The notes under the pieces are model-generated. The model saw nothing but the letters and a program-made list of their open reading frames with translations, did not search any database and was not told the origin of the DNA. From Streptosporangium sp. NBC_01755 (GTDB lineage: Bacteria; Actinomycetota; Actinomycetes; Streptosporangiales; Streptosporangiaceae): DNA of 64,000 nt. A program made the translations under genes and the position numbers. This document shows positions 55,738 to 58,284 of this stretch, piece after piece. Numbering within the stretch: position 1 is the first letter of the stretch; each line of letters starts with the position of its first letter. Location: NCBI RefSeq assembly GCF_035917995.1, contig NZ_CP109131.1, forward strand, positions 5,332,001-5,396,000, written 5' to 3'.

Positions 55738-56997
55738 GTGACTGTCCTTCTGCCCGGTGTGGCGCTCACCGACCACGTGTTCACCGTTCCGCTCGACCAC
55801 GCCGACCCCGGCGGCGAGACGATCGAGGTCTTCGCCCGGGAGGCGGTGGACCCGGCCAGGCAGCGGGAGGACCTGCCGTGGCTGCTCTTCCTGCAGGGCG
55901 GTCCCGGCGGCAAGTCGCCGCGCCCGGCCGCCGCGGACGGGTGGCTGGGGCAGGCGCTGAAAACCCACCGCGTCCTGCTGCTCGACCAGCGGGGGACCGG
56001 CCGCAGCACACCCATCACCGCGAAGACGGCGTGCGGCACGGACGCCGAGCTCGCCGCCCGCCTCGGGCACTTCAGGGCCGACTCGATCGTGGCCGACGCC
56101 GAGCTGATCCGGCGCGAGCTGGCCGGCGACCGGCCCTGGGAGACCCTCGGCCAGAGCTACGGCGGCTTCATCACGCTGACCTACCTCTCGCTGGCCCCCG
56201 AGGGCCTGGCGACCTGCTACGTGACCGGTGGTCTGGCCGGGCTCGACGCCACCGCCGACGACGTCTACTCCCGCACCTACCCGCGCGTCCGGGGCAAGGC
56301 GCGCCGCTACTTCGCCCGCTATCCGAACGACTCGGGCCGCCTGGACGAGATAGCCGCCCACCTGCGGCTGCGCGAGGTCTCGCTCCCCGACGGCGACCTG
56401 CTGACCGTACGCCGCCTGCAGACCCTCGGCATGTGCCTGGGCATGAGCGACGGCGCCGAGTACCTGCACTGGTTGCTGGAGGAGGCCTGGACCGGCGACA
56501 GGCTCTCCGACCTGTTCCGGTACGAGGTCATGATGGCCACCGGCTTCGTCGGCAACCCGCTCTACGCGGTCCTGCACGAGTCGATCTACGCCCAGGGCGC
56601 AGCCACCGGCTGGGCCGCGCACCGGCTGCTGCCCGAGGAGTTCCACGAGGACGCGGGGCCGACGCTCCCCACCGGGGAGATGATCTATCCCTGGATGTTC
56701 GACGAGATCGCCGCGCTCCGCCCCTTCAGGGGCGCCGCCGAGATCCTCGCCACCGCCTCCGGCTGGCCGGCCCTCTACGACCCGGTCCGGCTGGCCGCCA
56801 ACCGGGTCCCGGTGGTCGCCGCCGTCTACTACGACGACATGTACGTCGACGAGGGCCTGTCCATGCGCACCGCGCGCGCGGTGGGCAACGTGCGGACCTG
56901 GGTGACCAACGAGTGGGAGCACGACGGCGTCCGGGTCTCCGGCGGCAAGGTCCTCGCCCACCTGATGGACATCGCGGGCGGCGTCCACGGCTCCTGA
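55738..56997 (+). CDS. proline-iminopeptidase-like alpha/beta hydrolase
   Basis: 419 residues from GTG 55738. TAGTTT ends seven bases before the GTG, so the message is probably leaderless. Signatures: FLQGGPGGKSPRP oxyanion loop, DQRGTGRSTP, and the nucleophile elbow LGQSYGGFITL. The lid region and late histidine (NEWEHDGVRVSGG) fit the S33 aminopeptidase group, which removes N-terminal proline or other residues in the cytosol. No signal peptide. It follows the methylase ruin by 10 bp but is probably an independent core gene. Confidence 0.9.
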   Translation: MTVLLPGVALTDHVFTVPLDHADPGGETIEVFAREAVDPARQREDLPWLLFLQGGPGGKSPRPAAADGWLGQALKTHRVLLLDQRGTGRSTPITAKTACGTDAELAARLGHFRADSIVADAELIRRELAGDRPWETLGQSYGGFITLTYLSLAPEGLATCYVTGGLAGLDATADDVYSRTYPRVRGKARRYFARYPNDSGRLDEIAAHLRLREVSLPDGDLLTVRRLQTLGMCLGMSDGAEYLHWLLEEAWTGDRLSDLFRYEVMMATGFVGNPLYAVLHESIYAQGAATGWAAHRLLPEEFHEDAGPTLPTGEMIYPWMFDEIAALRPFRGAAEILATASGWPALYDPVRLAANRVPVVAAVYYDDMYVDEGLSMRTARAVGNVRTWVTNEWEHDGVRVSGGKVLAHLMDIAGGVHGS

Positions 56998-57057
56998 ACG
57001 TCTCGGGGAGAGGGCTGGAGCGTGCCGTCCAAAGCGTCCGCTCCGGACGGCATGGGC

Positions 57058-57201
57058 TCAGGTGGGGGCGGACGCCTCGGTGACGGGGAGGCGCACCTGG
57101 AAGCGGGTGTCGCCGGGCTTCGACTCCACGCGCAGGTCGCGTGCGATGGACCGTGATACACCTGGATCGTCGTCGACGGTCATGATGACCGTTTTGTCCA
57201 T
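57058..57201 (-). pseudogene. fused ends of a response-regulator/oxidoreductase gene and a histidine-kinase gene (47 aa)
   Basis: ATG 57201, with GGGGGAAG upstream, starts TVIMTVDDDPGVSRSIARDL, the phosphoacceptor-containing N-terminus of response-regulator/thioredoxin-reductase-like proteins. Without a frame break it becomes RVESKPGDTRFQVRLPVTEA, the last residues of GHKL histidine kinases (G2 tail). In intact actinomycete loci these genes form one operon with a small zinc-finger gene between. An about 3-kb deletion inside the operon would produce exactly this fusion. The 47-residue product has no complete domain. Confidence 0.7.
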
Positions 57202-57270
57202 GTGCTGTCTTCCCCCGGGATGGCGGCACTCGATATGGGGACAATCTCTCTGCAGGATGTCACTTTTGCG

Positions 57271-58191
57271 TTAAAGCAATCGTTCGTCGGGCGCGGTTGT
57301 GCGGGCCGGATCGGTCCCGCGGGGGCGGGGGCCGGGCATCCCCGTGGTGCGTAGCAGGGCGGCCGCGTAACCGTGGTCGCTGAGGAAGCGCTTGAGCTCG
57401 GGGTCGCGGGCACAGAGTTCGCTCATGCCCTCGTGGCCGACCCGGTCGGCGATGATCTGCAGGGCGATGTCCTGCCTGACGTACTCGACGGCCATAGCGG
57501 CGACGGCCGGGTCCTCGGTGTAGACGCCCCACGCGGTGCCGCCGGCGAAGCCGCCGACCAGGGCCTCCCGCCGGTCGCCCACGACGACCAGCAGCCGATG
57601 CTCCGGGCCCTGCCCCTCCTGGGCCTCCGTGGTCGCGCACGGAGGGGGGAAGCGGCGCTCGTAGAGATTCCCGACCGGTTTCCGCACCGCCCCGAAGTGC
57701 ACCACCGAGGTCTCGACCCCGCGCTCGACGGCTCGTTCGACCAGTGCGGAGAGCCGCCCCATCTCCTCGGGCCAGATCGACAGGAACAGGTCGGTATGCG
57801 CCTCGGCCACCACGTCCTCGGCCCGCGCGAGCAGCGCCTCCGCGTCCTTGAGGCTGTGGATCAGGTGGGCCCCGGGGGACGCCACGATCACGGGCAGCGA
57901 GACCTCCAGCGACTCGATCGAGTCGTCGAACTCCCGGCGCATGCGCTCCAGCAGGGAACGCGGTGGCAGAGGCAGGTAGTCGACGGTGTCGCCGGTGCCA
58001 CGCAGCTCATAGGCCGCGCCCTTGGCCACCAGCTTGCCCAGTGTCGCGTAGACCATGCTGCGTGGCACGCCTGAGCGCTTGGCGACCTCATAGCCGTTGA
58101 GGGGCTGCCCGGCACCGACCAAGGTGACGTACGCCTTGGCCTCGTAGCCCGACATCCCCAAACGCTGTAATTGCTCCACTACGTCCCGCAT
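57271..58191 (-). CDS. TrmB-family transcriptional regulator
   Basis: 306 residues from ATG 58191 (a farther in-frame start at 58212 exists). N-terminal TrmB helix-turn-helix (QRLGMSGYEAKAYVTLV and KRSGVPRSMVYATLGKLV), a coiled stretch, then a PLD-like effector domain (about 110-270) as in PF11495. TrmB relatives sense sugars. TACCAT seven bases before the start suggests leaderless transcription. Its regulated genes are not evident; the deleted operon at 57.1 kb was adjacent on the same strand. Confidence 0.85.
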   Translation of the reverse strand: MRDVVEQLQRLGMSGYEAKAYVTLVGAGQPLNGYEVAKRSGVPRSMVYATLGKLVAKGAAYELRGTGDTVDYLPLPPRSLLERMRREFDDSIESLEVSLPVIVASPGAHLIHSLKDAEALLARAEDVVAEAHTDLFLSIWPEEMGRLSALVERAVERGVETSVVHFGAVRKPVGNLYERRFPPPCATTEAQEGQGPEHRLLVVVGDRREALVGGFAGGTAWGVYTEDPAVAAMAVEYVRQDIALQIIADRVGHEGMSELCARDPELKRFLSDHGYAAALLRTTGMPGPRPRGTDPARTTAPDERLL

Positions 58192-58284
58192 CGCAGTTAT
58201 GGTACGGCGCAAGCTACCCCTTTAGCGCTGTCCTAAAGCAGCTGTTTGGTGGGATTTTCGTCACGCGCTCGAGATGGAGGCCGT

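Follow-up and report, generated by a model that had tools for sequence, protein, structure and literature searches.

A 47-codon fusion frame in Streptosporangium sp. NBC_01755 as the very probable scar of a deletion between two 10-bp direct repeats in a lost RR-TrxR–HK operon

Introduction

In the reductive evolution of Streptococcus agalactiae, RecA-independent (illegitimate) recombination deletes DNA between short direct repeats (PMC3637634), and gene fusions made by deletion have been described from experimental evolution of Pseudomonas fluorescens (PMC4395868). The locus considered here lies on the minus strand of a window of 64,000 nucleotides from the chromosome of Streptosporangium sp. 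NBC_01755. As in S. agalactiae (PMC3637634), a gene-losing lineage has cleanly shed kilobases between words shorter than RecA requires; in Streptosporangium, however, the breakpoints sit in two different genes of a single operon, and a translatable fusion is left behind. As in the P. fluorescens fusions (PMC4395868), an upstream gene has been joined to a downstream one by deletion; the fusion there preserved a complete catalytic domain and was favoured by selection, whereas the Streptosporangium relic keeps no domain. Both ends of the relic come from an actinobacterial gene pair encoding a response regulator/thioredoxin-reductase-like protein (RR-TrxR) and a cNMP-binding histidine kinase (HK); no literature was found on this receiver-TrxR/kinase pair. 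The relic is very probably the scar of a deletion between two 10-bp direct repeats within the lost RR-TrxR–HK operon, and its product has very probably no function. Such a scar is of an ordinary, known kind, and it is unusually clear and well preserved here. The features of the locus are collected in Table 1.

Table 1. Features of the fusion frame and its surroundings (positions in the window)
Feature	Position	Strand	Basis or remark
Fusion ORF (relic), 47 codons	57058..57201	-	both halves in one short frame only in this genome among the matches listed
Part derived from the lost RR-TrxR gene (codons 1-24, native start)	57130..57201	-	
Part derived from the lost HK gene (final 23 codons, native stop)	57058..57129	-	
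10-bp word GCGACCTGCG, deletion junction, common to both parent sites	57131..57140	-	split alignment
Retained upstream region with TGACATCCT...TTGTC motif and GGGGGAAG ribosome-binding site	57202..57270	-	alignment of ten Streptosporangium genomes
Terminator-like hairpin past the stop, 13-bp stem	57023..57052	-	
TrmB-like regulator, next to the operon on its upstream side in each of the 14 genomes that keep it	57271..58212	-	
Alpha/beta hydrolase, convergent, flanking the locus on its other side	55738..56997	+	

The parent operon in Streptosporangium

In the nearest relative, Streptosporangium amethystogenes NRRL B-2639 (G008), the RR-TrxR gene (L046:3580-5244) encodes a 554 aa protein with a receiver domain (PF00072) and a pyridine nucleotide-disulphide oxidoreductase domain (PF07992); the protein is related to thioredoxin reductase, yet scores far under the TRX_reduct equivalog cut-off. 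The HK gene that follows (L046:5279-6700) encodes 473 aa with a cNMP-binding domain (PF00027) and an HATPase_c domain (PF02518). The pair is kept in 14 of the 16 Streptosporangium genomes, downstream of the TrmB-like gene, and in most of the genus the TrmB-like gene and the hydrolase bracket the operon; the gap from kinase to hydrolase is several kilobases in G009 and G012. In S. violaceochromogenes (G007; L099 / L105) the TrmB-like gene and the hydrolase are separated by ~40 bp that hold neither the RR-TrxR–HK operon nor an ORF remnant; this loss is separate from that in NBC_01755 and is complete. The remainder of the NBC_01755 genome holds no full-length homologue of the two lost genes.

The fusion frame

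The fusion frame was compared first with 100 relatives and then with all 16 Streptosporangium genomes. It translates to MDKTVIMTVDDDPGVSRSIARDLRVESKPGDTRFQVRLPVTEASAPT*, with an ATG start and a TGA stop. Residues 1-25 are 88% identical to the RR-TrxR start of G008, G015 and others, and match the starts of frames of ~550-580 aa in 14 of the 15 other genus genomes at 80-88% identity; residues ~20-46 match the ends of kinase frames, again in 14 of 15, at 69-89% identity. The HK-derived part is 89% identical to that of G008, and its stop is common to G008 and to G004, the other of the two nearest relatives. The second match lies ~3 kb downstream of the first, and 4.8 kb downstream in one genome, G001. 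The initial annotation had derived the 24 start codons from a response-regulator/thioredoxin-reductase-like gene and the 23 end codons from an operon-closing histidine kinase gene, with the whole operon removed and its ends fused; both parents, and the operon itself, are indeed found intact and syntenic in 14 of the 16 genus genomes.

Little of either parent survives, as the frame keeps 24 of 554 RR-TrxR codons and 23 of 473 HK codons; the receiver phospho-acceptor, the FAD/NAD domains and the cNMP domain are gone, and hardly anything remains of the kinase ATPase domain. The 47-aa product has no Pfam match at E ≤ 0.1, and the receiver, oxidoreductase and kinase domains are all missing from it. 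No second short fusion frame occurs among the matches listed from 343 family genomes, nor do those matches contain a conserved independent 47-residue ORF, the observation that the initial annotation had named as counting against its own reading. One other short frame is present among them, in G249 of another genus (L193 5595-5804); it belongs to an RR-TrxR gene whose frame is disrupted past the start region. Parents, synteny and the absence of the fusion from the other matches listed are observed directly, as is the repeat described below.

The junction and the route of deletion

In the split alignment the left and right aligned blocks overlap by 10 bases, GCGACCTGCG, at the junction. This word is exact in both junction arms of G008 and of G004, while the scar has one copy. 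When 300,000 breakpoint pairs were drawn at random from the two G008 genes, 0.011%, or about 1e-4, shared a word of at least 10 bases. Measured against G008 the deletion spans 2,977 bp, and with G004 as reference 3,002 bp; the intact syntenic operons thus bear out the earlier estimate that about 3 kb was lost in one event. Short identical words had also been proposed as the cause of the deletion, and this part of the proposal stands; the word then given, GACCTGCGC, does not, as it is one base off to the right of the correct GCGACCTGCG: its last C fits the kinase arm only, and the RR-TrxR arm reads GACCTGCGG.

The deletion was probably recombination-independent, via replication slippage or end annealing between the two GCGACCTGCG direct repeats, one at RR-TrxR codons 21-24 and the other near the HK end. 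One repeat copy and all that lay between would have been removed (2,967 bp plus one copy giving 2,977 bp against G008), and the RR-TrxR and HK ends would have been joined in frame. The deletion is probably recent.

Mis-assembly, in which the strain would still carry the full operon and the assembler would have collapsed it across the 10-bp word, is scarcely credible; 10 bp is much less than an assembly collapse would need, the chromosome is one contig of 8.15 Mb, and the same lineage has several further clean deletions whose junction words are quite unlike this one. Ku/LigD end joining of a double-strand break, with the short word used for annealing, is considered very unlikely. Some other junctions on the lineage do have words of 0-2 bp, as this route would allow; however, Ku, the NHEJ end-binding protein, has no family match in this genome, G008 or G004 (it is present in G003, G007 and G015), and classical NHEJ is therefore an unlikely route. 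The missing Ku refutes the Ku/LigD route unless Ku disappeared only after the operon had been deleted. A missing mismatch nuclease, NucS, was also considered as a cause of the deletions and was rejected, since all six genomes tested have it.

Other deletions on the lineage

About 400 kb was compared with G008, with G004 as outgroup, and 246 kb could be aligned. About eight clean segments present in the outgroup are missing from this genome (G000:C1:5389131-5666411, against G008 C1), with junction words of 0-10 bp, and the deleted RR-TrxR–HK operon is one of them, although polarisation is weaker for three of the eight, where the outgroup flank spacing differs from the segment length, and two that lie side by side may be one complex event; within the 246 kb aligned, no segment is missing from G008 yet present in the outgroup. 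A burst of deletion on this lineage is possible. Also in this region, a 45.5-kb segment (G000:C1:5554753-5600227) is missing from both G008 and G004, and the empty site shows a 27-bp overlap; the segment is probably an integrated element, and the two 20-kb stretches containing its ends have no tRNA genes.

The lost reductase has its nearest paralogue in a cNMP-linked TrxR (G000:C1:7617869; L194 3967-5049, minus strand), which is intact in G007 and G008. In this genome it carries a private in-frame deletion of 588 bp that shortens it from 557 to 360 aa and removes the FAD-binding GxGxxG motif. A broader reading, in which the lineage would be dismantling all of its regulator-linked thioredoxin-reductase-like genes by separate private in-frame deletions, amid a burst of clean deletions in a Ku-less clade and with one fusion still made as a small protein, is given little credence.

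The shared reading frame

The two G008 parent genes have 24 exact words of at least 10 bases in common, every one of them in the same codon register, as are 130 of the 146 words shared across six genes. In 200 random pairs of G+C-rich ORFs drawn from a 398-kb G008 contig, 79% of 10-bp words share their register, and 72% still do so after codon shuffling. The shared frame of the fusion is thus owed to codon usage; since repeat-mediated deletion is usually in frame in such genomes, the in-frame junction is no evidence of selection or function.

Retained signals and the fate of the frame

The TGACATCCT...TTGTC motif upstream of the operon is conserved across the genus and is perhaps a promoter or operator. 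The hairpin stretch past the stop has a predicted energy of -31.1 kcal/mol (z = -4.49); an Rfam search of 56900-57400 gave no match. The initial annotation had described the relic as translatable with its ribosome-binding site, and GGGGGAAG, start, open frame and stop are all retained. As all signals remain, transcription and translation of the relic are plausible, and it is probably both transcribed and translated, judging from these sequence signals.

Relative to G008 and G004, seven changes are private to this genome, five silent and two replacement (P4T and V19I), and there is no stop or indel in the fusion frame. Neutral change would give ~70% replacements, and two in seven falls short of this (binomial about 0.03), a count that mixes constraint before and after the deletion, as most of the changes may predate it. 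Weak constraint on the frame is conceivable.

These signals, together with an open frame in which five of seven lineage changes are silent, are what would be expected had selection retained the fusion as a small protein with a function, such as a peptide of 47 residues acting against the partner of the response regulator that was lost. This is considered very improbable: the fusion is seen in a single genome among the matches listed, fusing in frame is what such a deletion does by default, the genome has lost both cognate partners, and both replacements fall at residues common to the other five compared genomes. Most likely the relic is dead, with no function for its product, and it may still be translated.

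Significance

The locus offers a textbook-clear, polarised case in which a two-gene redox-sensing operon has gone in one step, and the leftover open reading frame could pass for a small gene in annotation. As about four-fifths of the 10-bp words common to two genes are in register in this G+C-rich clade, repeat-mediated deletions tend to yield in-frame fusions even without selection; this is a warning against equating 'in frame' with 'functional', and at the same time points to a simple way in which new fusion ORFs can arise.
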